Below, piece by piece: positions 6,795 through 63,980 of a DNA stretch of 64,000 nucleotides; positions within the stretch are counted from its first letter, which is position 1; each line of letters begins with the position of its first letter. A program made the position numbers and the translations under genes. The notes beneath the pieces were generated by a model that was not told the origin of the DNA, did not search any database, and saw only the letters and a program-made list of their open reading frames with translations. Where the stretch lies: the NCBI RefSeq assembly GCF_032884065.1, contig NC_088883.1:29711355-29775354 (forward strand), in the 5' to 3' direction. The DNA comes from Artemia franciscana. Lineage: Eukaryota; Arthropoda; Branchiopoda; Anostraca; Artemiidae.

Positions 6795-6931
6795 TCTTGG
6801 GTTTTGATCCAAAATCTTCTGAATTCTATCAAAATGGAAAAATAGAATGCTATCAACTATGTATAAATCTCCCTCGTCTCCCAGGGAATATGGGCCAGAA
6901 GTGATATCGCCCATTGCGTTCAAACCTCCAC
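6795..6931 (-). CDS. FAS1 gene exon c1 (end of last visible FAS1 domain)
   Basis: Coding exon for the C-terminal part of a fasciclin domain. Acceptor TTCTCTATTTAG precedes 6931 and donor GTGAGT starts at 6794. The exon opens with two bases completing a glycine codon, then 45 codons: GGLNAMGDITSGPYSL, then the H2-like box LYIVDSILFF and a helix DRIQKILDQNPR. In FAS1 domains this segment forms the last beta strands, with a hydrophobic V/I-D-S/N-V/I-L box. It joins exon b1 in phase 1 and ends in phase 0, as exon c2 does. It closely resembles c2 (31313-31437), sharing MGDI-SGPY and IDSILFF. It is the most 3' exon I can find. Cellular role inferred: extracellular or membrane-linked adhesion. Confidence 0.85.
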
Positions 6932-8040
6932 CTAAATAGAGAAGAAAATGAACAAAAAACTTAAAAAACAGGCTTATGATTGACACAAAATTTATTACTT
7001 TGACAAGTGTAAACAGTTTAATTAAAAAATATTTCATTAACTTAATAACTTCTTTTACTGTTAACCATTAGAAAAAGGCAGCAAAGGTAATGCTTCTATT
7101 TAAAGACTTGACCACGGTATTTTGGGTCTTACCATAAGAAGGTGCTATTCATTGCCACGTTTATGCATATATCTATTTAAATTTTTGGCGAATCTACAGG
7201 AAAAATTTTGTAAACTTTGGGCGAAGAAATAAATTTTCAAATGAGTATAAATCCATTTATTAAGACAGTGAAAGAAACAGGTGCGAAAGTCCAAATATTT
7301 TGATCACATATACAGCTATCATCATCAGTAGAATTACTAAAATAATATAATTGAAACTAGTATATTTATACATATATAACATAAATAACTTTTCGGGTCA
7401 TTCAAGGATGATGAACCCCAGATTATTCACTAGATTATTTTCGGAGAGAGTTCAATGAAAAGTTTATTCAAAGTCTTGATGTAAGTTCACTATTTGGTCT
7501 TGCCCAAAAGTAAAACAAATTTTCAATGAAGGTGGCAAAGCCTTCCGTGTCTTCTAATTGCAAACGAAACTTTGAGTTTTATACTTGTTCATGTGGTTGG
7601 TCTCATTTCCCCATATATACTACGTATTTTCGACGTAACACCTTAAATTAGGTAGCCTTTTCATAGACCACACTGCGGTTTTACTATTTATCCCCATTTG
7701 AAGATTTATTTATATAGAACGGCAATTCAGTCTAAGAAAAAAGATACCTATTTCAAGGTGTTGCGTCGGAAATAAACTTTTGGGCGAAAATCTCTTCATG
7801 GGAGTATATTTTAGAGTAACCACATTTACTGACATAACTTGACAATACGGCATTGACAATGACAATGACAATGGCAGCAAAAAGGGTTTGGTTTGAACCT
7901 GTTAATAGCCTTAATGAACAATTTGAACCTCAAAAACAAGTTATTGTTCTAACAAAAGTTTTTAGAGCCTTACTAAAGTCATTTTAGGTCTCAGTTGATA
8001 AGGGAACTTTAAGTATTTAGATTTATTTTATGAAGTATAT
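6932..8040. other. Start (in window order) of the 15-kb intron b1-c1
   Basis: AT-rich intron without a recognised gene. A short GACAAT microsatellite-like run sits near 7850. Confidence 0.5.
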
Positions 8041-9118
8041 TTGATTTTTTCTGCAAGGACTACTTGGAAATGCTTGTTGATGAGTAAAAATGGTGGAATA
8101 GTGAGCTTTATCTGCTTTTCATTGACTTCGAAGAGGCGTATGACACAGTTGATCGACTTTGTTTATAGAAAGTCCTCAGTTAATATAGAGAGGAGTGTCA
8201 GAAAATCCTGTGAGCATGATTATAGCTCTACATGGGGAGACTGAGTGCTGCGCCAACCAGGTTTTTTTTTCCAAGCTAATATCTGGTGTGTACCAGGGAT
8301 GTGAACTTTTCCTGTTCCTTTTCGTGATTGTTATAGATTGAGGCACGATTCGTGATAAGGCGTGGAAGGATGCAGTAAGCAACATTCTGACTCCAACTTG
8401 AAGGCCAACACGTAGGCTTGATAGAAAGCTCTAAACGGAGGTTGCCGCAGCCACTTGAAACGATCATTGAAAACTAATAAAACGCCAATCTGCTGAAACT
8501 GAACAAGTGAAGAGTATGTCCATCTTAGCTTCACCGCTTGTTCTGTATTGCCATAATTATGATCTATAGCAGCTAATGGAGTTGAATTGTCTGAGTAGTT
8601 TGAGGGATTGTGATGGCAAAATAGTGACCGAGATTACTAAAATAGTGACTATCCAGAATTGGACAGTCAACCAGAGCCTTCAATAGATTAAAGCCCTTCG
8701 AGAGAAGCAACAAATATTCCATACTAGTGCAGTTATATCCCTTTAAAGCAGCGTAGAGTACATAGTCTTATATAAGAGGACTCTCTCATTCGAAAATGTG
8801 TGCCTGAGGAAAATTCTACATTTAAACAATTTTTGAAATTCTAATACAATGGATCAGACTATTATCACTGCTGCACTAAAAACAGAAGAAGTGGACATAT
8901 TTGGGACACGTCCTCCATGTGAAGCAAAAATGTGTTCTTCGGACAACCTAACGATTAGGTGTAAAATTGTCGAAGAAGATTACTACCAAAAAAAATCCGT
9001 ACGGGGAACTTACGACCAAGGACTAAGGACGGATGAGACCACATTGGCACCTCACAGGGAAGACGTCACAGTTATAGTGCCGATTTGAGATAAGTGACAG
9101 ACTTCGTCAACGCCCTGT
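8041..9118 (+). pseudogene. LINE reverse transcriptase and tail remnant
   Basis: Plus-strand translation gives LLFIDFEEAYDTVDR (8112-8156, the palm motif with catalytic Asp) and, after stops, SGVYQGCELFLFLFVIVID (8283-8339, matching the SGV-QGC-LSP-LF motif of LINE RTs). Frames are broken several times. Downstream text is weaker: a segment like DCDGKIVTEITKIV resembles the YLGS-region of the RT tail. The last segment, just before the satellite, reads FVNALCATDLLGIEAG, like the WR-FVDALCAT tail found in some animal LINE proteins. No intact ORF remains. Confidence 0.75.
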
Positions 9119-12100
9119 GCGCCACCGACCTCCTCGGAATTGAGGCAGGGATATTATTAGATTGATTTGGTAGAAATCAAAAGCTTATTAAGAACTAAGA
9201 ATAGTAGTTTAAATCTATTTCGAGGTAAGTTTTACGCTCAAGAGCTTAACAGCGACGCTATTTCAAGATTGCCACGAGCTGTTTGCCACCGACCTCCTTG
9301 GAATTGAGGCAGAGATATCATTAGATTGATTCGATAGAAATCAAAAGCTTATTAAGAACTAAGAATAATAGTTTAAATCTATTTCGAGGTAAGTTTTACG
9401 CTCAAGAGCTTAACAGCGACGCTATTTCAAGATTGCCACGAGCTGTTTGCCACCGACCTCCTTGGAATTGAGGCAGAGATATCATTAGATTGATTCGATA
9501 GAAATCAAAAACTTATTAAGAACTAAGAATAATAGTTTAAATCTATTTCGAGGTACGTTTTACGCTCAAGAACTTAACAGCGACGCCATTTCGATATTGC
9601 CACGAGCTATGCGCCACCAACCTCCTTGGAATTGAGGAAGAGATATCATTAGATTCATTTGATAGAAATCGAAAGCTAATTAAGAACTAAGAATAATAGT
9701 TTAAATCTATTTCGAGGTAAGTTTTACGCTCAAGAGCTTAACAGCGAAGCTATTTCGAGATTGCCACGAGCTGTTCGCCACAGACCTCCTTGGAATTGAG
9801 GCAGGGATATTATTAGATTGATTTGATAGAAATCAAAAGCTTATTAAGTACTAAGAATAATAGTTTAAATCTATTTCGAGGTAAGTTTTACGCTCAAGAA
9901 CTTAACAGCGACGCTATTTCGAGATTGCCACGAGCTGTTTGCCACCGACCTCCTTGGAATTGAGGAAGAGATATCATTAGATTCATTTGATAGAAATCGA
10001 AAGCTAATTAAGAACTAAGAATAATAGTTTAAATCTATTTCGAGGTAAGTTTTACGCTCAAGAGCTTAACGGCGAAGCTATTTCGAGATTACTACGAGCT
10101 GTGCGCCACAGACCTCCTTGGAATTGAGGCAGGGATATTATTAGATTGATTTGATAGAAATCAAAAGCTTATTAAGAACTAAGAATAATAGTTTAAATCT
10201 ATTTCGAGGTAAGTTTTACGCTCAAGAGCTTAACAGCGACACTATTTCAAGATTGCCACGAGCTGTTTGCCACCGACCTCCTTGGAATTGAGGCAGAGAT
10301 ATCATTAGATTGATTCGATAGAAATCAAAAGCTAATTAAGAACTAAGAATAATAGTTTAAATCTATTTCGAGGTAAGTTTTACGCTCAAGAACTTAACAG
10401 CGACGCTATTTCGAGATTGCCACGAGCTGTGCGCCACAGACCTCCTTGGAATTGAGGAAGAGATATCATTAGATTCATTTGATAGAAATCGAAAGCTAAT
10501 TAAGAACTAAGAATAATATTTTAAATTTATTTCGAGGTAAGTTTTACGCTCAAGAGCTTAACAGCGAAGCTATTTCGAGATTCCCACGAGCTGTGCGCCA
10601 CAGACCTCCTTGGAATTGAGGAAGAGATATCATTAGATTCATTTGATAGAAATCGAAAGCTAATTAAGAACTAAGAATAATAGTTTAAATCTATTTCGAG
10701 GTAAGTTTTACGCTCAAGAACTTAACAGCAACGCCATTTCGAGATTGCCACGAGCTGTGCGCCACCGACCTCCTTGGAATTGAGGAAGAGATATCATTAG
10801 ATTCATTTGATAGAAATCGAAAGCTTATTAAGAACTAAGAATAATAGTTTAAATCTATTTCGAGGTAAGTTTTACGCTCAAGAACTTAACAGCGACGCTA
10901 TTTCAAGATTGCCACGAGCTGTGCGCCACCAACCTCATTGGAATTGAGGAAGAGTTATCATTAGATTCATTTGATAGAAATCGAAAGCTAATTAAGAACT
11001 AAGAATAATAGTTTAAATTTATTTCGAGGTAAGTTTTACGCTCAAGAGCTTAACAGCGAAGCTATTTCAAGACTCCCACGAGCTGTGCGCAACAGACCTC
11101 CTTGGAATTCAGGCAGGGATATTATTAGATTGATTTGATAGAAATCAAAAGCTTATTAAGAACTAAGAATAATAGTTTAAATCTATTTCGAGGTAAGTTT
11201 TACGCTCAAGAACTTAACAGCGAAGCTATTTCGAGATTCCCACGAGCTGTGCGCCACAGACCTCCTTGGAATTGAGGAAGAGATATCATTAGATTCATTT
11301 GATAGAAATCGAAAGCTAATTAAGAACTAAGAATAATAGTTTAAATTTATTTCGAGGTAAGTTTTACGCTCAAGAGCTTAACAGCAAAGCTATTTCAAGA
11401 TTCCCACGAGCTGTGCGCCACAGACCTCCTTGGAATTGAGGCAGGGATATTATTAGATTGATTTGATAGAAATCAAAAGCTTATTAAGAACTAAGAATAA
11501 TAGTTTAAATCTATTTCGAGGTAAGTTTTACGCTCAAGAACTTAACAGCGACGCTATTTCAAGATTGCCACGAGCTGTGCGCCACCGACCTCCTTGGAAT
11601 TGAGGAAGAGATATAATTAGATTCATTTGATAGAAATCGAAAGCTAATTAAGAACTAAGAATAATAGTTTAAATTTATTTCGAGGTAAGTTTTACGCTCA
11701 AGAGCTTAACAGCGAAGCTATTTCGAGATTCCCACGAGCTGTGCGCCACAGACCTCCTTGGAATTGAGGAAGAGATATCATTAGATTCATTTGATAGAAA
11801 TCGAAAGCTAATTAAGAACTAAGAATAATAGTTTAAATTTATTTCGAGGTAAGTTTTACGCTCAAGAGCTTAACAGCGAAGCTATTTCGAGATTCCCACG
11901 AGCTGTGCGCCACAGACCTCCTTGGAATTGAGGTAGGGATATTATTAGATTGATTTGATAGAAATCAAAAGCTTATTAAGAACTAAGAATAACAGTTTAA
12001 ATCTATTTCGAGGTAAGTTTTACGCTCAAGAACTTAACAGCGACGCTATTTCGAGATTGCCACGAGCTGTGCGCCACCGACCTCCTTGGAATTGAGGAAG

Positions 12101-12559
12101 AAATATCATTAGATTCATTTGATAGAAATCGAAAGCTAATTAAGAACTAAGAATAATAGTTTAAATCTATTTCGAGGTAAGTTTTACGCTCAAGAACTTA
12201 ACAGCGACACCATTTCGAGATTGCCACGAGCTGTGCGCCACCGACCCCCTTGGAATTGAGGAAGAGATATCATTAGATTCATTTGATAGAAATCGAAAGC
12301 TAATTAAGAACTAAGAATAATAGTTTAAATCTATTTCGAGGTAAGTTTTACGCTCAAGAGCTTAACAGCGAAGCTATTTCGAGATTGCCACGAGCTGTGC
12401 GCCACAGACCTCCTTGGAATTGAGGCAGGGATATTATTAGATTGATTTGATAGAAATCAAAAGCTTATTAAGAACTAAGAATAATAGTTTAAATCTATTT
12501 CGAGGTAAGTTTTACACTCAAGAACTTAACAGCGACGCCATTTCGAGATTGCCACGAGT
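9114..12559. repeat. 164-bp satellite, 21 tandem copies
   Basis: The motif GCCACCGACCTCCTTGGAAT recurs from 9121 to 12401. The spacings I measured near the start are all 164 bases, and the full span is exactly 20 x 164, so there is no net length change. Monomers fall into at least three subtypes by diagnostic words: GCAGAG with GATTGATTCGAT; GAAGAG with GATTCATTTGAT and CGAAAGCTAA; and GCAGGG with TTATTAGATTGATTTG. The subtypes are interleaved. The array stops abruptly after GCCACGAG and within about 25 bases meets a minus-strand Helitron 3' end. Fragments of the same monomer occur at 19368-19502, 20041-20430 (inverted) and 20455-20515. Confidence 0.97.
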
Positions 12560-12585
12560 TTAAGAGATATATATATATTTATATA

Positions 12586-13076
<491 letters not shown>

Positions 13077-13334
13077 AGTTGACTGTGTGTGTGTGTGTCG
13101 ACTGATGAAATTACACACCGGGACATCGGGACAGAAATGACGACAGGACACCGAGACATTCTATCTATCTATATATATAAAAATAAGTTGTCTGTCTGTG
13201 TGTCTGTCTGTGGATCAGATGACGTCATGTTTCTGTGTCAGCTGACGTCATGAAGTTAGTTGTCGTCATTTTTGCTATGACGGTGACGTCATTAAAGATA
13301 TTTAAGACATATATGTTCACTTAGAAATCTATTA

Positions 13335-13685
13335 ATGTTTAAGTTTAAAATGACTGATGAACTTACAATGGCTAAAGCCGATGAAGATGCTCAAAGAGTC
13401 TATGCCAAAAAACTTGCTGCTGATAGAGAAAGTCAAAAAAGAAAGCGTGCCGAGGAATCAAAAGAACAGCAAGGAAACAGGCTTGAGGCTAAAGAACGCA
13501 AAACCGCGCAGTTAGATGAAGATCCACCTGGACAGCGAGAGTCAAAACATATCAAAACTGAAAATGATAGCGATGATGATTGGGTTTGGGATTTTGACTC
13601 GGATAAGGTCATCAATGCCTACCAGATTTTAGTTAAAAAAACAAAGGTTCGGCGATATGTATTTCATAGTGAAGCTGAAAAATAA
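13335..13685 (+). CDS. Short charged ORF in Helitron 5' region
   Basis: A 116-residue ORF of unknown function. Residues 1-60 are rich in Lys, Arg, Glu and Gln (KKLAADRESQKRKRAEES), likely helical. Then comes QLDEDPPGQRESKHIKTEND and the acidic-aromatic patch DSDDDWVWDFDSDKV, followed by INAYQI and a basic end. A second copy lies in the Helitron at 52734-53679, where SKHIKTENDSDDDWVWDFD is unchanged. The N-terminal part also matches the repeated KLAADRES-KRK segment ahead of the RepHel zinc finger (14400-14460), so it may be a truncated RepHel N-terminus with its own end. The start used is the ATG at 13335; MTDELTM just inside it is an alternative. Confidence 0.5.
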   Translation: MFKFKMTDELTMAKADEDAQRVYAKKLAADRESQKRKRAEESKEQQGNRLEAKERKTAQLDEDPPGQRESKHIKTENDSDDDWVWDFDSDKVINAYQILVKKTKVRRYVFHSEAEK

Positions 13686-13761
13686 AGAAGAAAAAGAAAA
13701 CTGAAAAAAGAAAAAATGTAAAAAACTAAAAAATACTAAAAAGAAAAAACACTCAAAGAGA

Positions 13762-13912
13762 AATTACAGACCGGGACACAAATGACGACCGGGACAGAGG
13801 GAATATAAATAACGACCGGGACACTCAAAGAGAAATTACAGACTGGGATACCGGGACACAAATGACGGCCGGGACACAGGGAATATAGATGACGACCAGG
13901 ACACAGGTATTT
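13762..13912. repeat. GGGACAC minisatellite inside Helitron
   Basis: Units such as GACCGGGACACAAATGACGA, GGGACACAGGGAATATAAAT and ACTCAAAGAGAAATTACAGA are repeated. The same words build the arrays at 1690-1820, 18955-19290, 19505-19862 and 52998-53140, always with Helitron sequence, so the minisatellite is an internal component of this Helitron family. Confidence 0.85.
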
Positions 13913-13997
13913 AAGAATATCGTTCAAAGACAAATTTTTAATTGTAAAAAGACAGTTGAAAGAGAAATTTCTAATTGTAAAATGACTGAAGAACCTA

Positions 13998-14315
13998 CAA
14001 TGGCAACGGTACCACCATCGAAGTAGATAACCAGTGGGTTGTTCCATATTCCCCATTAGTGCGAAACGTCAACCCCAAGTCAAATTCGTGCATTGTTTGG
14101 CATCATTTTAACAACTTGCTCTCCATCAGCTCCTACAGAGTTATGGGAAAAATATAAGTCAAAAATGTCCGAAGATATACTCCATCGAAAACAGTTAGAG
14201 ACGTCAGATATGACTTTTTATTTTACATCAGAAATTTATAACTACACTTTAGTTATTATAGAAGATTTGTGCGTACGTATGGCAAACAAACCTCTTCAGG
14301 ATTTGGGAATAAAGG
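13998..14315 (+). other. Chimeric internal duplication inside the Helitron
   Basis: Bases from about 13998 to 14058 match 16154-16212 (GGTACCACCATCGAAGTAGA). They jump directly to sequence matching about 16873-17124 (TGCGAAACGTCAA...CAGGATTTGGGAAT), then switch to the N-terminal KRK-rich coding region. So two separated parts of the Rep/helicase gene were copied, joined and inserted just after the codons MTEEPTMAT of the N-terminal ORF. Divergence from the source is small. Confidence 0.85.
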
Positions 14316-15245
14316 CGTGTCGAGGAACTACTAGAGCAACGCGAAACCAGACTTGCTTCTGAAAGAAAAAGTAAAAAAAGAAGGCGTGCCGAGGAATCAC
14401 AAGAACAGCAAGAAAACAAGCTTGCGGCTGATAGAGAAAGCAAGAAAAGAAAGTGTGCCAAGGAATCACAAGAGCAACCTGAAAATTATCGCCTGGCATT
14501 CAGCCCAGTCGATGATTATAGTAGATGTGTTCAAATCGGGACTATGTCTAAAATTTGTCCCTATTGCAAGGCCTTGAAATTCAATGGTGAAACAATGGGA
14601 GTGTATTGCGCCTCAGGTAAAGTTAAACTTCCTCTATTGGCTGCACCACCAGAGCCATTGAAAACTTTGCTTACTGGAACTACGTCAGAATCTAAGCGTT
14701 TTTTATCACAGATCAGAAAATATAACTCATGTTTCCAAATGACGTCGTTTGGTGCACAAATCGAAAATCCAGATTAATTTATGCCTACTTTCAAAGTAAA
14801 AGGGCAAATTTATCATAAAGCAGGGTCCCATCTGCCATTCTCAGGCGAGAATCATAAATTTTTACAATTGTGCTTCATCAGTGATACAAATTCTGAATTG
14901 AATGCACGTTGCGAAATTTCTCCCAACGTTGAAAGGACAATCGTTTCCCAATTGCAACATCTTTTCCACGAAAATAATATTTTAGTGCGTCTGTTCAAAA
15001 CAGCCATCAATTTGATGCCTACTGATACGCATAAAATTGTTATTTCTGCTCACAAAACGCCTCCTGGCCAACATGTGCGTAGATACAATGCTCCAACTAT
15101 CGACGAAGTGGCAATCGTTATGGTCGGTGATCAGTTTTTACCTCGAGATATTATTCTTCATAAGCGAAACGCTCAGTTGGTAAGAATTGCTGAAACTCAT
15201 CGATGCTACGATGCCCTACAATATCCTATCATTTTTTGGGATTGA
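14316..15245 (+). pseudogene. Helitron RepHel N-terminus with zinc finger (broken)
   Basis: Coding for the N-terminal part of the Helitron replication protein. A KRK-rich segment (KLAADRESKKRK) leads to NYRLAFSPVDDYSRC and a zinc-finger-like MSKICPYCKALKFNGE followed by YCASGKVKLP. Then come PLLAAPPEPLKTLL and TSFGAQIE. A stop follows IENPD (14776), and the frame resumes at FKVKGQIYHKAGSHLP. The segment PGQHVRRYNAPTIDEVA, then MVGDQF, is typical of Helitron proteins. The last segment ends CYDALQYPIIFWD with a stop at 15243-15245, where a Gly or similar codon is usual. It belongs upstream of the Rep fragment that starts at 15273. Confidence 0.8.
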
Positions 15246-15272
15246 GCCGACGGCTATCACTTTAATATTAAA

Positions 15273-16958
15273 TTGATGAATCCAGCCACTAACAAAGAAA
15301 TGAATAAGAAATGCAGTGCAATGCATTATTATTCCTATAGACTAATGATTCGGCAGGATGAAGAGAATTATATTTTAAAATTCCGTCAATTGTTTCACCA
15401 ATATGTCGTTGATATGTATGCGAAAATTGAATCAGAACGTTTGCTATATATCCGCCTGAATCAGACCAAGCTCCGCTCTGAACAAAACATTCATTTGCGA
15501 GATGCAGTTGTAAATGACGGTAATACCACAAACGTTGGAAGATTAACGATTTTACCTTTGTCATATACTGGCAGTCCCCGTCATTTGCATGAATATGCTC
15601 AAGATGCTATTGCGTATGTTCGTCTCTATGGTCGTCCAGATTTATTTATTACATTTACATGTAATCAATCTTGGGACGAGATACAGCAGATTTTACTTCA
15701 AGAACAATCGGCGGTTCATAGACATGACATTACGACCCGTGTCTTCCGGCAAAAGTTGAAATCACTGATAAACTACATAGTAAAACTTGAAGTGTTTGGG
15801 TCAGTGCGATAGTGGATGTACTCAGTGGAATGGTAAAAACGAGGTTTGCCACACGCACATATACTAATCTGGCTACATAATAAAATTACGTCTAACGAAA
15901 TTGATGATGTGATTTCCGCTGAAATACCTGATGAAAATGTCGATAAGGGGTTATATGATGTTGTTGTAAAAAATAATACATGGACCTTGCGGTGCATTGA
16001 AGAAAATTCACCATGCATGGCCAAAGGAAGGTGCACAAAGCAATATCCTCGACTTTTAGTATCCAGCACAATTACTGGCAATGATGGTTACCCACAATAT
16101 AGAAGAAAATCTACTGAAGATGGTGGTAAAACAGCAATAATAAAGAAGCATAACGGTACCACCATCGAAGTAGATAACCAGTGGGTTGTTCCATATTCCC
16201 CATTATTATCAAAAACATTTAATGCACATATAAACGTTGAATACTGTAACTCCGTAAAGCCAATCAAATACATATGTAAATACGTCAACAAAGGCGGTAA
16301 AATAAAAGATATCGACGAAATTGTACAATATCAGGCTGGAAGATACATAAGCAGTAATGAAGCTGTTTGGAGAATTCTTTCATTTCCGATGCATGAACTT
16401 AGTCCAGCTGTTGTTCACTTAGCGGTACATTTACAGAATAGTCAACGTGTTTATTTTTCGGAATCCAACGTGCAACAAAGAGCCCTGAATCCACCGGATA
16501 CAAAGTTAACTGCTTTCTTTTCGCTATACAAAAATGATTCTTTTGCAAAAAAACTACTGTATACTGAAGCGCCTTCGTATTACACGTGGAATACTAAAAA
16601 TAAAGTATTTGAACGTCGAAAACAGGGTAAGTCAGTCGACGGCCAATCTACCATCTTCAAAGATACCACGATAGGAAGACTCTACACCGTTCACCCCAAT
16701 CAACATGAATGCTTCTTTCTACGTCTGCTTTTGGTGAATGTACCCGGTCCGACGTCCTTTGAGTATTTGAGAACTGTAAACGGTACTATACATGACACTT
16801 ACCGTAGTGCATGCCAAGCTCTGAATTTATTGGAGAATGACCTACACTGGGATAACTGCATCAATGACGCGTGCGAAACGTCAACTCCAAGTCAAATTCG
16901 TGCATTGTTTGGCATCATACTAACAACTTGCTCTCCATCAGCTCCTACAGAGTTATAA
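15273..16958 (+). pseudogene. Helitron Rep (HUH endonuclease) region, broken
   Basis: This part would nick and join DNA strands during rolling-circle transposition. All three Rep motifs are visible: LFITFTCNQSW (about 15640-15675, motif 1), LPHAHILIWL (15844-15873, the HUH metal-binding motif, here H-A-H) and IKYICKYVNKGG (16263-16298, motif 3, with the two catalytic tyrosines). Two or more stops near 15809-15835 split motif 1 from motif 2. The second piece runs to a stop at 16956, ending IRALFGIILTTCSPSAPTEL. The retained catalytic residues suggest recent inactivation. Confidence 0.85.
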
Positions 16959-16976
16959 GAAAAATATAAATCAAAA

Positions 16977-18603
16977 ATGTCCGAAGATATACTCCATCGA
17001 AAACGGTTAGAGACGTCAGATATGACTTTTAATTTTACATCAGAAATTTATAACTACGCTTTAGTTATTATAGAAGATTTGTGCGTATGTATGGCAAACA
17101 AACCTCTTCAGGATTTGGGAATGCCTTCACCTAATCGTACCGCTGCTGTTTCGACATGTTTAGAATTGGATCGTGAACAAAGTTACAGTACGAATGATCT
17201 ATTGTCGTATCTACAAAATAACATTTCCAAGTTAACGTCAGAACAAAAAGACATTTATGATATGATAATGCATTGTGTCGATAACAACGTTGGAGAAACT
17301 TTCTTTTTGGATGATTCTTCTGGCATCAATTCGATCAAAAAATGATATAGAGTTGGCAATTGCGTCGTCCGGAATAGCCGCAACGTTGCTGCCTGGTGGA
17401 AGAACTGCTCATTCCGCTTTGAAATTGCCTCTGAATTTGCATTCTACAGAAACTCTCACGTGCAATATTTCCAAATCATCTGGGATGGGTGAAGTATTGC
17501 AGCAATGCAAACTTATCATTTGGGACGAGTGCACAATGGAACACAAAAAATCGCTCTAGGCTCTGGATCAATGTTTGAAAGATTTGCGAGGGAATTCGAA
17601 ACCCTTTGGCAGCACATTAATATTGCTTGAGGGAGATTTCAGGCAAACATTACCTATAATACCTAGATCAACCCCTGCAGACGAAATGAATGCTTGCCTA
17701 AAAAATTCTAATTTATGGGCACACGTAAAAACATTAAAATTAACTACAAATATGCGTGTCCAATTGCAATACGATGACTCTGGTCAAACATTTTCAGATC
17801 AATTACTGGCAATTGGAAACGGAAAGCTCCCAGTAGACTCAATTTCAGGACGTATACAAATACCTACTTAATTATGTAATTTAGTGACGTCCAAAAATGA
17901 ATTGATTGAAAAAGTATTTCCGAATATTCTAAACAATTATAAAAATAATAAATGGCTAAGTGAAAGAGCGATTCTTGCACCCAAAAATATAGACGTCCAC
18001 GAAATCAACAATATTGTTTTGACCAAGATTCGAGACCAGGCAGTCCTTTACAAGTCAGTCGACACAGTTTTGGAACCAAATGAAGCGGTTAATTATCCAT
18101 CTAAATTTTTAAATTCCGTGGATATTTCAGGGTTTCCAGCACACGTGCTACAACTAAAATAGGCGTACCAATAATACTGTTAAGAAATATCAACCCACCA
18201 AAGCTTTGCAATGGCACGCGACTTGCCGTAAAAAAAAACGATGGAAAACGTAATAGAGGCCACAATCTTGACAGGGCCTTTTGAGGGTGAGGCTGTTCTT
18301 ATTCCTCGCATTCCCATGATTCCAACGGATCTGCCTTTTCAGTTCAAAAGATTGCAATTCCCAATTCGATCAGCATTTGCAATCACCATCAACAAAGCTC
18401 AAGGTCAATCATTAGAAAAATGCGGTATTGATCTTAATACTGATTGTTTTTCCCATGGACAATTGTACGTTGCATGTTCGAGGGTCGGTAAACCTGACAA
18501 TCTATTTATATGCAGCGACAATTGGACAGCGAAGAGTGTTGTATATTCGCAAGTTTTACGCAGTCAATTTGTACTGTATCTATCTATCTATCTATCTATA
18601 TAA
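16977..18603 (+). pseudogene. Helitron Pif1-like helicase domain, P-loop lost
   Basis: SF1B helicase domain that would unwind DNA during transposition. Segments: LTSEQKDIYDMI (Q-like region), ETFFLDDSSG, where the Walker A motif (normally G-G-T-G-K-T) is absent and the frame shifts, then IASSGIAATLLPGGRTAHSA (motif Ia), LIIWDECTM (Walker B, DE kept), a stop in the following helix, LLEGDFRQTLPI (motif III), TTNMR (motif IV), ITINKAQGQSLEKCGIDL (motif V) and LYVACSRVGKPDNLF (motif VI). Further stops sit at 17869 and 18160. The missing P-loop means it could not bind ATP even if frames were restored. Confidence 0.88.
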
Positions 18604-18749
18604 AAACGAGTTGTGTGTAGGCATGTTTGTTTGTTCGTAAAAAGAGCGTTTGCATAAAAAGACGTCGTTATTAGTTCATAAGGCTTTGTATATGCACAGA
18701 CAATGGGAAAGCAAAGAATGTTGTATATTCGCAAGTTTTACGTAGTTCA

Positions 18750-20037
18750 AAACACATATATAAATCTATCTATATTCATAGGTGGTACACAGGGACACAA
18801 CTACAATGGCGCGTAACTAATATGGCACGTAACAACTTACCCACGCGGGGGGCTTGGGGGAGCACGAAGCGCCCCCACCAACTAGGTGTTGGGGTGACGC
18901 GAAGTGCCACCCCAACAGCTAGTAGGGAATATAAATAACGACCGGGACACTCAAAGAGAAAGCTACCGGGACACAAGGAATGTTCGATTAGCAATCACCA
19001 TCAATAAAGCACCGGGAAACAAATTACGACCGGGACACATAGAATACAAATGACGACCAGGACACTCAAAGAGAAATTACAGACCTGGACACTGGAACAC
19101 AAATGATGACCGGGACAAAAATGACGACCGGGACACCGGGACACAGGGAATATAAATGACGACCGCGACACTCAAAGAGAAATTACAGACTGGGACACCG
19201 GGACACAAATGACGACCGGGACACAGGGAAACAAAGGGGACGCCGGGGGACACAGGGGGATATATAAATGACGACGGGGACACAGGGAATGTTCGATTAG
19301 CAATCACCATCAACAAAGCTCAAGGGCAATCATTAGAATAATGAGGTATAGATCTGAATACAAATCCGAATAATAGTTTAAATCTATTTCGAGGTAAGTT
19401 TTACGCTCAAGAACTTAACAGCGACGCTATTTCGAGATTGCCACGAGCTGTGCGCCACCGACCTCCTTGGAATTGAGGAAGAGATATTATTAGATTCATT
19501 TGATAATCGAACATTCCCTGTGTCCCCGTCGTCATTTATATATCCCCCTGTGTCCCCCTGTGTCCCCGTTGTTTCCCTGTGTCCCGGTGTCCCAGTCTGT
19601 AATTTCGCTTTGAGTGTCGCGGTCGTCATTTATATTCCCTGTGTCCCGGTGTCCCGGTCGTCATTTTTGTCCCGGTCGTCATTTGTGTTCCAGTGTCCAG
19701 GTCTGTAATTTCTCTTTGAGTGTCCTGGTCGTCATTTATATTCCATGTGTCCCGGTCGTAATTTGTGTCCCGGTGCTTTGTTGATGGTGATTGCTAATCG
19801 AACATTCCTTGTGTCCCGGTCGCTTTCTCTTTGAGTGTCCCCGTCGTCATTTATATTCCCTACTAGCTGTTTGGGTGGCGCTTCCCGCCACCCCAGCACC
19901 TAGTTGGTGGGGGCGCTTCGCCCCCCCCCCCCAAGCGCCCCGCCCGCGTAAGTCGTTACGCGCCATATTAGTTACGCGCCATTGTAGTTGTGTCCCTGTG
20001 TACCACCTATGAATATAGATAGATTTATATATGTGTT
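18750..20037. repeat. 1.3-kb inverted repeat of Helitron 3' ends and minisatellite
   Basis: The left arm (about 18750-19299) and right arm (about 19503-20037) are inverted copies. Both run from ACACATATATAAATCTATC through GTCCCTGTGTACCACCTATG, a G/C-rich hairpin with CTAG (18919-18922 plus; 19863-19866 minus), and GGGACAC minisatellite to GGAATGTTCGATTAGCAATC. The ~200-base centre holds a helicase scrap (ACAAAGCTCAAGGGCAATCA) and one partial 164-bp satellite monomer. The sequence just outside both CTAG ends is identical (TAGGGAATATAAAT), so the inverted duplication copied an existing insertion junction. Confidence 0.88.
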
Positions 20038-20040
20038 TAG

Positions 20041-20515
20041 ATTTAAATAGCGTCGCTGTTAAGCTCTTGAGCGTAAAACTTACCTCGAAATAGATTTAAA
20101 CTATTATTCTTAGTTCTTAGTAAGCTTTTGATTTCTATCAAATCAATCTAATAATATCCCTGCCTCAATTCCAAGGAGGTCTGTGGCGCACAGCTCGTGG
20201 CAATCTCGAAATAGCTTTGCTGTTAAGCTCTTGACCGTAAAACTTACCTCGAAATAGATTTAAACTATTATTCTTAGTTCTTAATTAGCTTTCGATTTCT
20301 ATCAAATGATTCTAATAATATCTCTTCCTCAATTCCAAGGAGGTCGGTGGCGCACAACTCGTGGCAATCTCGAAATAGCGTCGCTGTTAAGTTCTTGAGC
20401 GTAAAACTTACCTCGAAATAGATTTAAACTAATATTCAGATTTGTATTATTTCAAGCTGTTTGCCACCGAGCTCCTTGGAATTGAGGCAGAGATATCATT
20501 AGATTGATTCGATAG
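20041..20515. repeat. 164-bp satellite fragments, mostly inverted
   Basis: From 20041 to about 20430 there are about 2.4 monomers of the 9.1-12.6-kb satellite in reverse orientation (CCAAGGAGGTC-GTGGCGCAC). At about 20455-20515 a partial monomer is in forward orientation. The inverted block directly continues the right arm of the Helitron inverted repeat. Confidence 0.9.
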
Positions 20516-20520
20516 AATCA

Positions 20521-20656
20521 ATCTGAATACAAATTGTTTTTCCCATGGACAATTCTATGTTGCATGTTCAAGAGTCGGTAAACCTGACAATCTATTTATA
20601 TGCACAGACAATGGGACAGCCAAGAATGTTCTATATTCGCAAGTTTTACGTAGTTA
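20521..20656 (+). pseudogene. Helitron helicase C-terminal scrap
   Basis: Encodes CFSHGQFYVACSRVGK-like text (here MDNSMLHVQESVNLTIYL in the ATG-starting frame) with TTGCATGTTCAAGAGTCGGT, matching motif VI and the tail of the helicase at 18430-18560. It ends in GCAAGTTTTACGTAGTTAAA and a TA microsatellite, as do the pieces at 1820-2020 and 18660-18760. Confidence 0.8.
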
Positions 20657-20664
20657 AATATATG

Positions 20665-20669
<5 letters not shown>

Positions 20670-20742
<73 letters not shown>
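20670..20742. repeat. (TA)n microsatellite
   Basis: About 70 bases of TA directly after the helicase scrap. This helicase-tail/TA order is the same as at 2020, which suggests the microsatellite grew from the Helitron's own TATA-rich end. Confidence 0.93.
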
Positions 20743-20743
<1 letters not shown>

Positions 20744-21259
20744 ACATATATCATGAAATTTAACCCCACTCATCCATACAATCACATAGGTCAAACAGCA
20801 TAGCCATACACAATCAACCATAAAGAATAATCCATGGACAGGCATTCATGTCGTCAATAAGGATAAGTCGTCATTTACTAAACAATAGAAAAAATAATAA
20901 AGACAAATAATTCAGAGGCAACAACCCAACACAAGGGCTCAAAAGGAGAATACACTGGCCTATATAGGGTTTCGCCACTTTAAATTCTCTACCCAGCCAA
21001 GTGTTGTGGCTACCACAGAATATCCATGGCATCCCCGTGTCAGGTATCACCCCCAAAATACATGCCTATGAAAGAAAAAAAAACAGCCAATGTAAAACAA
21101 CCAAGTAACACCAAAATAAGCTTATCCTGTTAACATATCCCTCTTTTTAGCAACAATAGGTAAACTAAATATAATAAATTTTACCAAATCACAAATATTA
21201 ACACATTGCAAAAACCTGAATGAACTAAACAATTATAGAATTCATCTTTGCCATGTGGC

Positions 21260-21295
<36 letters not shown>

Positions 21296-21490
21296 GCTCA
21301 ATTAGAAACACAATTCAAAATAAATGGCGCTGCAACAACATTTCTCGAACCTCCGAAATTAGTTGAAAATAGAAATTTGTATTCCTGTTATTTGTTTATT
21401 CAATACTATTTTTATACTAAAACTTGTTGTGCTAAAAAAATTTTTGTTTGTATCATTTTACAATAGGAAGCAGGTGCCACGTGACAAAAT
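20744..21490. other. Intron, no gene recognised
   Basis: Contains ACAACCCAACACAAGGGCTC and GAGAATACACTGGCCTATAT, which look like the 3' part of some interspersed repeat that I cannot name, and a pure A run at about 21268-21291. No usable ORF. Confidence 0.4.
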
Positions 21491-21499
21491 ATATTCAAG

Positions 21500-21760
21500 G
21501 GAGCCGAGCTAAATGGGGCTATAATGAGAGAAAGTTTGAGATGGCTGGGGCACCTTCTACGGATGATGGATGACAGATTACCAAAAATTGTCCTTTTCGG
21601 CCAACCATCTAGGGCGAAACGGAAAGCTGGTTGTCCGCGGTTGGGGCGGGATGGTGTTCTAAAAATGACTTAAGGGAAATGAAACTTTCTGGGAGAGTGT
21701 AAAGAGGTAGGCTTTGAATAGACTAGGATGGAGGAGGAGCGTGCGAAGCTGTAAGGAGAA
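21500..21760 (+). pseudogene. LINE C-terminal tail remnant
   Basis: Plus-strand translation gives LRWLGHLLRMMDDRLPKIV, then LFGQPSRAKRKAGCPRLG, a stop where the next helix should be, and LGWRRSVRSCK. This R-W-x-G-H-x-x-R-M-x-D-x-R-x-P-K pattern is the standard C-terminus of several animal non-LTR retrotransposon polyproteins. It sits just outside FAS1 exon b1. Stops after GRDGVLK show decay. Confidence 0.85.
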
Positions 21761-21890
21761 AAAAACAGTTTCTTTGATTCTGACTTTTTTGGCTTTTCGA
21801 AACATTAGGCAATGATTTCTGAACCCTATTGATTTAGGACAAGGTTTACCTGTAGAGGAATGGGAAAATACACAAGAACCAAAACAGTAC

Positions 21891-22115
21891 CTTCTTTTGC
21901 CACTTCAATTTTCCTTCCAGTAACAGTTTCGAAAGTTGATCCAGCAGACAGATCTTTCTGCTGAATAAGCTGCGGAACTATATGATCTATTATCATCTCA
22001 TCCCTGAAAGAAGGATCTACCATATAAACGTCTTGGGTATCTCTAGGTATCCATTGCCGAATGCCCTGCTTTGTTGGAACAAAAACTGTGTACTTCTTGG
22101 TATCTTCTGAGTAGC
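21891..22115 (-). CDS. FAS1 gene exon b1 (domain core)
   Basis: Central part of the third complete FAS1 domain. Acceptor ATCCTTTGCAG precedes 22115, and donor GTACTG starts at 21890 after GCAAAAGAAG. Two bases complete a Gly codon carried over from exon a1, then 74 codons, then one base shared with exon c1 (phase 1 at both ends). Visible are YTVFVPTKQGIRQWIP (the H1-like T-V-F-x-P-T box), DPSFRDEMIIDHIVPQL (the L-x-x-H-V-V region), KDLSAG and TFETVTGRKIEV. Compared with textbook FAS1 domains, the usual A-F after P-T-N-E is replaced by Q-G-I. It is most like exon b2; b3 is more distant. Confidence 0.9.
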
Positions 22116-25610: not shown

Positions 25611-26257
25611 AATTTGCCTTTATAAACCAGGAAAACCAGGAATTCATTTTAATAAAAAAAAGACCTCCAAAAATAGTTATACAGCCCTTGCTAGTAGCTT
25701 GCGCTAAATCATAAAGAGGGGGGGGGTTAAGCCGGAAAAATATGGCACCAAACGAATTAAGAAGGCGCGTCTCCCCTTTGAAGGTGTACTTGTCCTTGGG
25801 AATCAACTGATTTCTAATTTTGAATTTTTAAGGACAAGAAGTGTCTTTAAATCTAACTAATTTGTTTTGCTTATTTACTTTCATGGAATAACGTGGCAAC
25901 ACTGATGAAACTGTCCTAAAAGCTGACGATTTTCGAAACAACCAGTGGCGTCGTTTTTTTTGGAGGGGGGCGGTCGCAAGGGGGGAAGTCCTTCCCCCTA
26001 CCCAATAATTTAGAAAAAAATATTATGTAGCCTATGCCCTTTGACTCTCTGGATGGAGACGCCTCTTGCCCCCCCCCCACCCAGTCAAAATGCTGGAGCT
26101 ACGTCCCTGGAAACAACCAAAAGAAAAGTGGTAGTTCGTGGCAAATGAAAAGTCGTAAAAATGACAGTTTTTAGGTATGAATAGTCCTGAGATGGACTCA
26201 GGGGGAAAAAAAGGTTTTTATTTTGATGTCCTTGGTATTGTAAATGCAAATTATTAC
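25611..26257. other. Intron a1-b1, no gene recognised
   Basis: Contains short C or G runs (25720, 25965, 26070) and nothing else I can name. Confidence 0.4.
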
Positions 26258-26612
26258 CTGAACTGCTCCTAAGGAGGCGACTCAGGTTTTTACTCGCCAA
26301 AAAATATTCTCGATACAAGCTTATCTCGTCGGTAGCTTGTCGTGACAGAAGAAAGGACCGAATACTTTCAATCAAATCATGGTCTTTTTCTTGTGAGCCG
26401 TGCCCTATACCTTCAACATTCTTCAGTGAGCATATTTTGGAATCAGTAAGTGGATTTGATTTTGGGTAGACCGGAAGACCAGTTAATAGGTAAGGCTTCG
26501 GAGGGGCGACATGACTTGTAGATGGACTTCCCTCTGGATAGTCTCCTTGGTCGGTAAGTGGATTAGGCTCAGGATTGTCTTCCTGACTTGTAAATGGGTT
26601 TGAAGGATTCTC
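26258..26612 (-). CDS. FAS1 gene exon a1 (linker and domain N-terminus)
   Basis: Longest exon of the set: 118 codons plus one base. Acceptor CCCTTATTTTTCACAG precedes 26612; donor GTAATA starts at 26257 after AGCAGTTCAG. It begins in phase 0. Residues 1-75 are a Pro, Asn, Ser and Thr-rich linker containing imperfect repeats (NPSNPFTSQEDNPEPNPLTD, then YPEGSPSTS and SNPLTDSK). Residues 76-118 are the first helices of a FAS1 domain: LIESIRSFLLSRQATDE, SLYREYFLASKNLSRLLRS. The last base joins GC of exon b1 to make Gly before YSEDTKKYTVF. It is 45 codons longer than a2 because of the linker, which probably acts as a flexible or O-glycosylated spacer (inference). Confidence 0.88.
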
Positions 26613-31312: not shown

Positions 31313-31437
31313 CGCATATATTTGATTAATCCTGTCTTGGTCAAAGAATAGAATACTATCTATTATGTACGAACGGCCTTGGCAATCGAGAGGATATGGA
31401 CCAGAGACTATGTCACCCATTCCATTCAAAGGACTAC
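31313..31437 (-). CDS. FAS1 gene exon c2 (domain C-terminus)
   Basis: Two bases plus 41 codons. Acceptor TTTTTTTCTAG precedes 31437; donor GTAAGA starts at 31312 after ATATATGCG. Starts in phase 1, joining the last G of exon b2 (Gly), and ends in phase 0. The protein reads SPLNGMGDIVSGPYPL, DCQGRSYIIDSILFF and DQDRINQIYA, with the H2-like box YIIDSILFF. Compared with c1 it is four codons shorter at the end; c3 and c4 are two codons longer than c1. It completes FAS1 domain a2-b2-c2. Confidence 0.88.
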
Positions 31438-35662: not shown

Positions 35663-35890
35663 CTTTTTCTGATCCATAGTTTATTATTTTCCCAGTCACA
35701 GTTTTAAAAGTTGCATTTTCAACAAGATCTTTGGACTGAATAGGCTGTATAAGAATGTGATCCAATATCATTTGATCTCTATAGGAGGTATCCATCATGT
35801 AATAATCGCCCGCATCACTAGGTATAAATCTTTTAATTCCGGAACTTGTTGGAATCAAAACTGTATATTCACTGATGTCATCAGAATATT
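35663..35890 (-). CDS. FAS1 gene exon b2 (domain core)
   Basis: Two bases, 75 codons and one base; phase 1 at both ends. Acceptor ATTCTGTTTTACAG is at 35891 upward, and donor GTTTGT starts at 35662 after TCAGAAAAAG. Protein: YSDDISEYTVLIPTSSGIKR, FIPSDAGDYYMMDTSYRDQM, ILDHILIQPIQSKDL and TFKTVTGKIINYGSEK. Aligned with b1 the T-V-x-x-P-T, R-D-x-M-I-x-D-H-I and T-V-T-G-x-I positions are shared, and about half of residues look identical by eye. Joins exon a2 through a Glu codon and exon c2 through Gly. The core repeat is one codon longer than b1. Confidence 0.9.
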
Positions 35891-42335: not shown

Positions 42336-42555
42336 CTGGACTTTTTCTAAGCACTTCGCTCAAATTTCTGCTGTCTAAGAAATATTCTCGGTATGAGCTA
42401 ATATCATCTTGTGATCCAGTGTCATCCATGGATAGCCTCGACGTAATGAAAGAACGAATGCTTTCAATCAATGGATGTGGATTTTCTTCAGGGAGTCTTT
42501 CCACAGAATCCTCTTCATTTGGAGTAGGACGATACCATGGGTTTTGAGGAGGGTT
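42336..42555 (-). CDS. FAS1 gene exon a2 (linker and domain N-terminus)
   Basis: 73 codons plus one base; starts in phase 0 after acceptor ATCTTTTTGTAG and ends in phase 1 at AAAAGTCCAG before donor GTAGTC (42335 downward). A short Pro-rich linker (NPPQNPWYRPTPNEEDSVER) leads into the first helices of the domain: LIESIRSFITSRLSMDDTG, DISSYREYFLDSRNLSEVLR. The segment LIESIRSF and YREYFL-S-NLS is shared with a1, so the two exons are paralogues by duplication; a2 has a five-residue insertion in the loop. Follows exon c3 and precedes exon b2. Confidence 0.9.
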
Positions 42556-49995: not shown

Positions 49996-50138
49996 CTTTT
50001 CGTGAAACTCATCAAGTGCTTTGTTCATCTCATTGAGGTCTACAAACACAATACTGTCTGTATTTATATAAGGGGCAATAGGATCACTCAGACCTTCCAA
50101 AGAAGTTACGATTGCTTCGTCAGCTAGTATTATAGAAT
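49996..50138 (-). CDS. FAS1 gene exon c3 (domain C-terminus)
   Basis: Two bases plus 47 codons. Acceptor ATTGTTTTATAG precedes 50138; donor GTAAGT starts at 49995 after CACGAAAAG. The first two bases complete an Asp codon from exon b3; the exon ends in phase 0. Protein: SIILADEAIVTSLEGLSDPI, then APYINTDSIVFVDLNEMNKA and LDEFHEK, where NTDSIVFVD is the H2-like box and the last residues form a helix. Same length as c4 (143 bases), while c1 and c2 differ, which suggests c3 and c4 belong to an older pair of domains. Next exon on the transcript is a2. Confidence 0.9.
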
Positions 50139-55674: not shown

Positions 55675-55893
55675 CTCCCTTGATGCTGATAGGAATTTTT
55701 TTCCCAGACACTGTAATTAATTCAGCACCTTCAACAAAGTCCTCTTTCTGCAATTTCCCCTTAACAATATGATCCTTGAGCATCTTCTTTCTCAGCCACT
55801 CACTGACATAATATGGATCAGCTGCATCTTGCAACAGCCATCTTGTGATTCCAAAATTATCAGGAATGATCATTGTGAAAGAGCCATCTGTGT
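55675..55893 (-). CDS. FAS1 gene exon b3 (domain core)
   Basis: Two bases, 72 codons and one base; phase 1 at both ends. Acceptor TGTAACCTTTTTCAG precedes 55893 and a strong donor GTAAGT starts at 55674 after AAGGGAG. Protein: DGSFTMIIPDNFGITRWLLQ, DAADPYYVSEWLRKKMLKDH, IVKGKLQKEDFVEGAEL, ITVSGKKIPISIKG. FTMIIPDN is the H1-like box; LKDHIVKGKL fits the family's L-x-x-H-V-V-x-G-x-L better than b1 or b2 does. Joins exon a3 through an Asp codon and exon c3 through Asp. Most diverged of the three b exons. Confidence 0.92.
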
Positions 55894-60900: not shown

Positions 60901-60933
60901 GAAGACAAATTTAAATTGATCATCACCACATAC

Positions 60934-61141
60934 CATCTTTTCTTATTTCATCATCCAGATCGACTGTTCTTTCTAAGTAATTTTTAAAGATGTGATAGTC
61001 TTCTTTGTCTTGTAGAGATGAATATGTTTTTTCCAAGAATGGTGAGTTTTTAAACAAATTAGAGCTGACCTTTGTTACACCAGGCTTTGGAGCATCACGG
61101 GTTGAAATGGGCTTTGCTATGAACACCGGGCCTTTACCATA
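60934..61141 (-). CDS. FAS1 gene exon a3 (linker and domain N-terminus)
   Basis: 69 codons plus one base. Acceptor CTGTTTTATTTTTAG precedes 61141; donor GTATGT starts at 60933 after AAAAGATG. Starts in phase 0 directly after exon c4 and ends in phase 1, joining exon b3 with an Asp codon. Protein: YGKGPVFIAKPISTRDAPKP, NLFKNSPFLEKTYSSLQDKE and DYHIFKNYLERTVDLDDEIR. The last stretch gives the first helices of the FAS1 domain (F-x-x-Y-L-x-x-x-x-x-L). The linker is short and not as Pro-rich as in a1. Little identity to a1 or a2 except Y-x-x-F/Y-x-x-Y-F/L, so this assignment relies on phase, order and the domain plan. Confidence 0.85.
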
Positions 61142-61384: not shown

Positions 61385-61560
61385 TTAGAAGCTACAGTAA
61401 CGGCATTGGTCAAGTATGGTTTCGAAAGATGGGCTCTTTGGGAGACAGAGGAGAATTTGTTATATATTTCCCAGATGAAGTGTCTACTGATTATTTTGGG
61501 GACCCCTCTGGTAGAAAGGTACTTAGAGCTTAAAGATGTATTTGTCAGCTATTAGTACCC
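61385..61560 (+). pseudogene. LINE polyprotein fragment (post-RT region)
   Basis: Plus-strand frame gives TVTALVKYGFERWALWETEE, NLLYISQMKCLLIILGTP and LVERYLELKDVFVS. The pattern L-x-Y-G-x-E-x-W-A-L-x-x-x-E-E ... Q-x-x-C-L-x-I-x-L-G-T-x-x is the conserved region just after the RT domain in several animal LINEs. No start, no RT motifs; old fragment. Confidence 0.75.
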
Positions 61561-61689
61561 AGCGGCGTTTTCTTCCATTTCGATCGTAGAAGAGGAATTT
61601 TGGCCCAACAGGACTGCAAAATGCTCGAAAGTAATTCTATAAGCTTTTAAAGGGGTATTATATAGGCTCTTATAGTTATCAAAACAAAT

Positions 61690-62340
61690 GCACTTCATTA
61701 AGACAAGAGCCGTTATACACCGTATACAAAACCGTTGTTATACACCGTTTATTCAATGAATGTATAATACAAAATAAAACCTGAGCAGAATACATGAGAA
61801 TTTCTCCAATGAAGCTATGCGAACCCGTTGTTATACAGCGTTGTTAAACCGTTGTTATACAAAACCGTTGTTAAGCCGTTGTTATACATAACCGTTGTTA
61901 TGTACCGTTTATTCAATGAATGTATAATACAAAATAAAACCTGAGCAGACTACATGAGAGTTTCTCCAATGAAGCTATGAAAACCCGTTATTATACACCG
62001 TTGTTAAACCGTTGTTATACAAAACCGTTGTTATACACCGTTGCTAAGCTGTTGTTATAGAAAACCGTGGTTATACACCATTTATTCAGTGAATGTGTAA
62101 TAAGAAATAAAACCTGAGCAAGAATTTCTCCAATGAAGCTACGCAAACCCGTTGTTATACACCGTTGTTAAACCGTTGTTATATAAAACCGTTGTTGTAC
62201 ACCGTTGCTATACAAAACCGTTGTTATACATCGTTTATTCAGTGAATGTATAATACGAAATAAAACCTGAGCAGACTACATGAAAATTCTCCAATGAAGC
62301 TATACGAAACATTAATGTTTCCAAATTTACAACGGTTGTA
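61690..62340. repeat. ~160-bp tandem array with CCGTTGTTATAC subrepeats
   Basis: The block TTTATTCA-TGAATGTATAAT, AC-AAATAAAACCTGAGCAGA, CTCCAATGAAGCTATG recurs near 61748, 61910, 62081 and 62234. Between blocks, the 12-14-base word AAACCGTTGTTATACACCGT is repeated a varying number of times. So a long unit contains a short one. Confidence 0.92.
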
Positions 62341-63837
62341 GAGAGTCGAATAAGTGCTCACCATCTGCTAGGGTGAAGGCTAGCAGATTTTTTACGTGGT
62401 GTACCTAAGCTTTACCCCTGGTTCCCACTCCTGCGTCAATCCGGAAGCAATTTTTTTCTGGCGGAACAGACGTACGACAGAATCGGATGGAGGTTCACAA
62501 AGAAACGCAGACTTTTGCGTCGCTGCGACAAACTTTAGAAGAATTCAAACAGCCAAAATTAGCTTTTCAATCAGCTCCATGACTTTAGTTATGATTTTTT
62601 TTTTTAAGTCACAACAAAGCATGCGATTTGTCGGATGAGTTGAAATTATTCAGCGCATCCGACATTGCAGAAAAACGAATGGTATTGCATCGTTTGTCGC
62701 ATGATATGTGCCATTTATCGCATGTCGCAGGATTTTGCGCGAAATCATGGCAGTGAGAACCAGGGGTTAGAACGAAAGTTATTTTAGGCCCACTTCTTAA
62801 AGTGATCCATGACGTGGGTCAGATGAGATGAGAATGGAACCGGGATTTTTTTTTTTTTTTTTTTTTTTTACTATGCATCAAGAATGACAGGGCTTAATAT
62901 TTTGAATTTTTTTTTATGCACAAAAAATGTTTTGAATTGCTGTTTCAGAAGGTAAAATATTTTCGAAAATCAATCGGCTACAATTGTGGTAGTAAAAAAT
63001 GCTTTCACAAAAGAGAAACAAAACTTCAGCGTGAACAGTGGAAGTTTAAGTAAGGGATAGCCGTCCTCATATAAATGAACTTTTCAGTTTGGTCTGTGGA
63101 TCGAGAGTGCTGTAAACATCAGAAATTTCTCGACCAAATTAATTTGCCGTTTTCATCAATAAAGTTATCAATAACGCCATCTCGAATCAACAACAAAATG
63201 AATTGTTGAGATGAAGGGGCTAATAGCCGTGTTCCCTTTAAAGATCGTAACATAACTTTTCTTTTAGTGAAAACAAAATACATTTTAAACCTTTTCTCTT
63301 TTTTACTTTAATAAAAAAGTATGTAATTTAATAATTAAGTCTTTCAGAAAGATTTTCTTGGCACATGAGTAAATTTCGTGCTTTCCAACAGGCACTATGA
63401 TCCCCGGATAAGCATTTCATAAGCATTTAGGTGGTGTTTTCTCCCCTAAATAATGAAAATACATAAATATAGATATTCTCAATAATGTAAACACTAGTAT
63501 TTAGTATTAAAAGTGAAATTTAAACTTAGAGAATTTTAGATATTTCAAATCACCGAAAACTAAACAGCTGATTTACTTTGATCTATAGGTTATTATCAAT
63601 GTTTTGTTCATTAGAGTTTTGGTCACTTTTGACAGGTGTTGCTTTTGACACGTGTCACTTTTTAATTGGAATTCCTTAACTATAATATATTTGGCTATTT
63701 CCATTTATTTAGTTTTTTTTGCTGCTTTTATCGTGTAGTATTTCTTCATATATTTTACAGCAAGAAGCATTGTTCCTTAAGATATATACACAAGGAAGCG
63801 AAAAAAGATGCAAGGTAAGAAAATTGAAAATACTAAC
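62341..63837. other. Intron c4-a3, no gene recognised
   Basis: Contains a T run of 23 or so at about 62848-62870 and a piece near 63000-63070 (AAACTTCAGCGTGAACAGTG, GATAGCCGTCCTCATAT) that faintly recalls the foldback core arm. An imperfect GTTTATCGCATG-type repeat lies near 62700. Confidence 0.4.
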
Positions 63838-63980
63838 CTTGGCTTGATACTCAGCAATGGCTCGGTCAATATCATCAGAGTTAACACTTATCAGGCTGTC
63901 AGTAAAAATTATTTTAGCTCCAGGATTTTCAGTAGCTTCTTCCCCAATTACAGTTGCCTTGTCTCCGATCATTACGACTC
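63838..63980 (-). CDS. FAS1 gene exon c4 (C-terminus of the upstream domain)
   Basis: Two bases plus 47 codons, exactly the size of c3. Acceptor CCTTCTTTCTTTTAAG precedes 63980; donor GTTAGT starts at 63837 after CAAGCCAAG. Protein: VVMIGDKATVIGEEATENPG, AKIIFTDSLISVNSDDIDRA and IAEYQAK. The segment IIFTDSLISV is the H2-like box, and DDIDRAIAEYQ is the closing helix. It follows a phase-1 intron, so a 'b4' exon is expected beyond position 64000. It connects in phase 0 to exon a3. First exon of the gene visible in the window in transcript order. Confidence 0.87.

Follow-up and report, generated by a model that had tools for sequence, protein, structure and literature searches.

Evidence for a large FAS1-domain gene in Artemia franciscana that probably grew by duplication of three-exon modules

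The 64,000-nucleotide stretch of Artemia franciscana contig NC_088883.1 analyzed here (the window) carries ten exons of FAS1 type on its minus strand. We consider it likely, with good confidence, that these exons are part of one large FAS1-domain gene that has grown by intragenic duplication of three-exon modules, each of which begins and ends in phase 0 (0-0 modules). A sequence-only reading of the window had described ten exons with GT-AG borders, fixed phases, and split codons for Gly, Asp, or Glu. All ten were rebuilt on the minus strand, and the exon structure given in that reading is correct. From 5′ to 3′ the order is c, a-b-c, a-b-c, a-b-c; AG precedes and GT follows the exon in 10/10 cases; and the phases run from 0 to 1 in the a exons (3/3), from 1 to 1 in the b exons (3/3), and from 1 to 0 in the c exons (4/4). 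The split codons are GAC, GAT, GAA, GGT, GGC, and GGT, encoding Asp, Asp, Glu, Gly, Gly, and Gly. The outer bases of the set, 63980 and 6795, are the same in both analyses, and the introns of up to 15 kb reported earlier are matched by a longest intron of 14,959 bases. The exons of the window, labeled by module, and this intron are as follows.

63838..63980, minus strand, exon D4c (the first c exon of the earlier reading), phase 1 to 0
60934..61141, minus strand, exon D5a, phase 0 to 1
55675..55893, minus strand, exon D5b, phase 1 to 1
49996..50138, minus strand, exon D5c, phase 1 to 0; the weakest match to the profile from window exons (E 0.00088)
42336..42555, minus strand, exon D6a, phase 0 to 1
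35663..35890, minus strand, exon D6b, phase 1 to 1
31313..31437, minus strand, exon D6c, phase 1 to 0
26258..26612, minus strand, exon D7a, with a long proline-rich linker, phase 0 to 1
21891..22115, minus strand, exon D7b, phase 1 to 1
6932..21890, minus strand, intron D7b-D7c, containing a Helitron and a 164-base satellite
6795..6931, minus strand, exon D7c, phase 1 to 0

Examination of 200 kb around the window, using profiles built from the window exons, extends the locus upstream on the same strand. In the same numbering, the additional exons are the following.

66550-66765, minus strand, exon D4b, phase 1 to 1
67819-68050, minus strand, exon D4a, phase 0 to 1
77942-78078, minus strand, exon D3c, phase 1 to 0
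90696-90905, minus strand, exon D3b, phase 1 to 1
106646-106850, minus strand, exon D3a, phase 0 to 1
161211-161432, minus strand, exon D2b, following the phase rule
170693-170983, minus strand, fused exon D1c-D2a, a single open exon between D1b and D2b, phase 1 to 1
177633-177848, minus strand, exon D1b, following the phase rule
183128-183263, minus strand, exon D1a, following the phase rule

The first five of these were out of sample for the rule derived from the window, and all five keep it. The locus therefore has five complete modules, D3-D7, with 3,003 coding bases across 100,056 bases, and as a whole comprises 19 exons with 3,868 coding bases across 176,469 bases. The symmetry claimed for the a-b-c module holds in each of D3-D7 (5/5), in which one domain corresponds to one module with the same phase at both ends. 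The claim that the phases are invariant stands for D3-D7, D1a, D1b, and D2b, and breaks down at the fused D1c-D2a exon. A separate D2a exon was not found in any phase, as D2a proved to be fused to D1c. The first and last exons of the gene were not found: neither the exon preceding D3a nor any exon following D7c was seen, and downstream of D7c the profile search returned no convincing a exon. Among six hydrophobic candidates for a signal-peptide exon upstream of D1a, none is convincing.

The phases are largely independent of how the splice sites were selected. Every frame-open AG or GT within 60 bases was scored at the 38 sites of the 19 exons with phase ignored, using a generic splice matrix with textbook-like frequencies. 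The claimed site ranks first at 34/38 sites, and the top-ranked site has the claimed phase at 35/38 (19/20 in the window alone), so the idea that the phases had been picked to fit the rule was rejected. In the window the single miss concerns the D7b donor: 41 bases further on there is a stronger phase-0 site, which is unsuitable because the D7c acceptor is in phase 1. The other three misses lie upstream: the D3a acceptor, the D3a donor, where another site is favored with the phase unchanged, and the D4a acceptor, for which the claimed site falls outside the best three.

The modules are FAS1 domains. When spliced, D3-D7 all score above the gathering score of 22 for PF02469 (62.6, 35, 37.1, 23.7, and 36.9 bits, respectively). 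A search of the 1.27 Gb genome with the same Pfam family gave 58 matches, of which D7b is the only one within the window; the other window exons were missed because their modules are divergent. Among the 17 solved-structure matches listed, the best by sequence are human TGFBI (E 3.5e-18) and periostin (E 2.6e-13). The Pfam scan of D3-D7 gave no match to EGF or X-link families. The locus has seven b exons on one strand, and if it is one gene, D1-D7 would form one transcript encoding at least seven FAS1 domains. Family membership suggests, as the probable product, an adhesion or matrix protein that is secreted or at the cell surface, with linkers joining several FAS1 domains.

Comparison of the locus with its paralogues in the same genome separates introns that belong to the family from those that belong to the modules. 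In the domain alignment, from which P33_1c was excluded, the loop immediately ahead of the first strand holds the phase-1 a/b intron, and columns 211-213 hold the b/c intron of D1 and D3-D7. Judged by eye, the a/b junction is in phase 1 in 8/8 paralogous b exons, and the b/c junction is in phase 0 in four (L001, L002, L005, and L007) and in phase 1 in four (L003, L004, L006, and L008); an invariance of phase across the family is thus not borne out. At four paralogous loci, on contigs C3 (L029 and L030), C54 (L032), and C16 (L033), the c and a parts share one exon. At L032 and L033 this exon scores next to nothing with the a profile, and its a part was identified by eye; in the first b exon of L029, the acceptor immediately preceding the domain was used instead of the automatically chosen one. 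L034 gave neither a c nor an a exon, and its second b match is weak. The two-domain paralogues on C3, C54, and C16 are therefore like the locus in their phase-1 a/b intron and in a nearly identical b/c column, but unlike D3-D7 in their fused c and a exons and, on C3 and C54, in the phase-0 b/c intron of the first domain; none matches D3-D7 better than E 0.55. In this genome the a/b and b/c introns characterize the family, and the phase-0 border intron is seen only among D3-D7. Another FAS1 locus (L031) has its exons divided otherwise and might, by analogy, be of stabilin kind.

Some of the paralogous loci are themselves of interest. L030 (C3:14616501-14626000) is a near-copy of the two-domain gene L029 (C3:2929501-2938500), 11.7 Mb apart, and the phases called automatically for its b exons differ, which would suit a copy in decay. 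Two pairs of FAS1 loci have equal or near-equal Pfam scores, C2:30.68-30.71 Mb with 31.75-31.76 Mb and C3:0.79 Mb with C54:0.42 Mb, and are either recent duplications or uncollapsed haplotypes. At C79:2517853-2642030, at least eight FAS1 matches cluster over 124 kb, perhaps another domain or gene array.

Several lines of evidence argue that the modules of the locus arose from one another. A tree was built from 17 b exons (73 columns). A branch supported at 93/93 sets the seven b exons of the locus apart, and the pairing of D6 with D7 has support of 96/98. The second domains of paralogues form a group at 93/98 that also takes in one C79 domain of uncertain position, and the first domains are unresolved. 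D6 and D7 are also the closest pair in each exon type, with identities of 49% (a), 53% (b), and 59% (c), as joint copying of the three exons would predict. A whole-genome search with D3-D7 gave 17 matches at the locus and, among 23 candidates scored, none beyond it better than E 0.55; an origin by shuffling of modules from elsewhere in the genome was rejected on this basis. For D6-D7 the nonsynonymous (dN) and synonymous (dS) values are 0.41 and 2.06, for D3-D4 they are 0.61 and 2.14, and for D3-D5 dS is not computable; the D6-D7 values are compatible with constraint, but their dS approaches saturation. Together with the coinciding intron positions, these results favor the growth by duplication proposed from the window, which is most likely, though supported rather than proven.

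Three exons make up each FAS1 domain of D3-D7, with the a exon supplying the linker and N-terminal helices, the b exon the central strands and helices, and the c exon the last strands and the C-terminal helix. The phase-0 introns between modules sit at the domain borders, and because they are in phase 0, copying from border intron to border intron keeps the frame and adds a whole domain. In the history that we propose, the intragenic duplications, possibly by unequal recombination, would have occurred long ago, with D6 and D7 the youngest pair, and the introns would afterwards have been filled with transposons and satellites.

A number of observations weigh against this account. The tree contains b exons only, and its 17 rows are short; just 1/14 inner branches is starred and 10 are drawn open, D4 and C16_d2 are long branches, and the 93/93 of the locus group falls short of 95, the support mark of the tool. 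Near corresponding splice sites the modules have no intron sequence left in common (0 hits), the introns giving 398 other hits among themselves. The earlier proposal that whole genomic modules were duplicated thus finds no retained intron likeness behind it and is deduced from the exons only; this lack of likeness, along with dS near saturation, indicates that the copies are old. The comparison sets the locus against paralogues of the same genome, and the exon and gene models are built from genomic sequence alone. Finally, the 0-0 rule fails for the locus as a whole, at the single D1c-D2a exon, and D2c was not found by profile search in any phase, within a D2b-D3a separation of 54 kb.

This last point bears on the extent of the gene. 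Since D2c was not found and the 54 kb intron contains two assembly gaps (135266-135333 and 156856-156955), D1-D2 might belong to another gene, adjoining the D3-D7 module array. The fused exon of D1-D2, typical of the two-domain paralogues, would suit such a division, which we regard as possible but doubtful: D1-D2 and D3-D7 are on the same strand in compatible phases, the D1 and D2 b exons fall on the locus side of the branch, and either gap could conceal D2c. A single gene is our preferred description.

A different objection is that this architecture came down from an ancestral multi-domain FAS1 gene and is old, with the likeness among modules due to convergence or homogenization and without recent module duplication. 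The introns common to the paralogues, a/b in phase 1 and b/c nearby, must indeed be older than the modules of this gene. In periostin, twelve exons (3-14) encode the four FAS1 domains, so that, like D3-D7, this gene averages three exons for each domain (PMC2824660). Human TGFBI provides evidence in both directions. The variant c.1804-35C>T places an intron before codon 602 (PMC3102024), and by our alignment this intron 13 is in phase 0 and differs in position from the b/c site by ∼4 to 7 bases. PMC2786890 and PMC3102024 place codons 502 and 509 in exon 11, 522 and 555 in exon 12, and 613 in exon 14. By the structure-match alignment the a/b site would fall between codons 522 and 555; as both are in exon 12, domain 4 is without an a/b intron on these assignments. 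The locus b exons, moreover, group together and not with paralogue domains, and the border intron is absent from the paralogues and from D1-D2. On balance we consider inheritance of the full architecture unlikely, and retain duplication of modules within the gene.

That the locus is a decayed gene, or that a splice pattern has been read into noise, is highly improbable. A few donors and one acceptor are weak; however, 19 open exons occur in order, phases match at every neighboring pair seen, the domains match Pfam, and dN is well below dS for both D6-D7 and D3-D4.

The introns of the locus hold mobile elements and repeats, including the following.

13296-18603, plus strand, Helitron in intron D7b-D7c, its open frames broken into several pieces
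15246-15809, plus strand, Helitron_like_N match, E 7.8e-42
17560-17868, plus strand, PIF1 helicase match, E 1.8e-22
18232-18600, plus strand, further helicase match in the same Helitron
9115-12558, 19368-19505, and 20042-20521, 164-base satellite
56145-57011, minus strand, hAT transposase C-terminal dimerization region in intron D5a-D5b, E 2e-9

The satellite is present in 21 direct copies before the Helitron and in few, partly inverted copies after it, and the two may have arrived together. A missed module hidden in intron D7b-D7c was considered and rejected, as the intron is occupied by these elements. One family of 155-170 base tandem repeats occurs in two introns, at 24711-25654 (D7a-D7b) and 30376-31135 (D6c-D7a). 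At 31592-31816 (plus strand) and 31825-32409 (minus strand), adjoining near-identical peptides are encoded in opposite directions, the second without a Pfam match. Elsewhere, a COX1 search gave 75 matches over many contigs, showing a genome rich in mitochondrial insertions. In three mitochondrial-like copies (L035-L037), probably nuclear, cox2 follows straight after cox1 with an estimated ∼60 bases between, and ARAGORN found no tRNA in any of the three. A cox1-cox2 order with no tRNA-Leu in between is that of chelicerates and of the ancestral arthropod, and reduced tRNAs are frequent in arachnids; taken at face value, these copies would make a crustacean source doubtful.

The locus offers a clean case in which one domain equals three exons equals one symmetrical module. 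An untouched two-domain arrangement survives at its 5′ end and in the paralogues, which makes the order of events testable: did the phase-0 border intron come first, and the domain array grow afterwards? The mechanism itself is ordinary and leaves the general picture of how repeated-domain genes originate unchanged. A bolder notion, which we hold to be distinctly unlikely, is that the product is a lineage-specific FAS1 protein of at least seven domains, every one of them from D3 onward forming a self-contained 0-0 cassette. Were this true, whole cassettes could be skipped or repeated to give proteins of varied length, and the number of modules might differ between species or individuals.

Our literature search, which covered titles and the starts of abstracts and had many journals outside its coverage, found no paper treating FAS1 exon phase, and the comparison with known systems is drawn from individual genes. 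Two Taenia solium fasciclin genes have 15 and 11 exons (PMC5606126). The locus can be called TGFBI-like on the basis of likeness in protein, but not on that of the a/b intron. TGFBI and periostin share with it the tandem arrangement of FAS1 domains; each has four (PMC6032426), compared with at least seven here if the locus is one gene. An N-terminal EMI (CROPT) domain is a mark of the TGFBI/periostin/Mfas family, and in periostin it is split over exons 2 and 3 (PMC2824660). The genome has one EMI match, on C14, and none at the locus, where an exon-split EMI could be missed. Insect Fasciclin 1 and Midline fasciclin are arthropod tandem FAS1 proteins, with four domains each (PMC6032426). No Drosophila fasciclin chain is among the 17 solved-structure matches listed. 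PMC6032426 also gives seven FAS1 domains for the stabilins, which resemble the locus in number, but differ from D3-D7 in having EGF and X-link domains.

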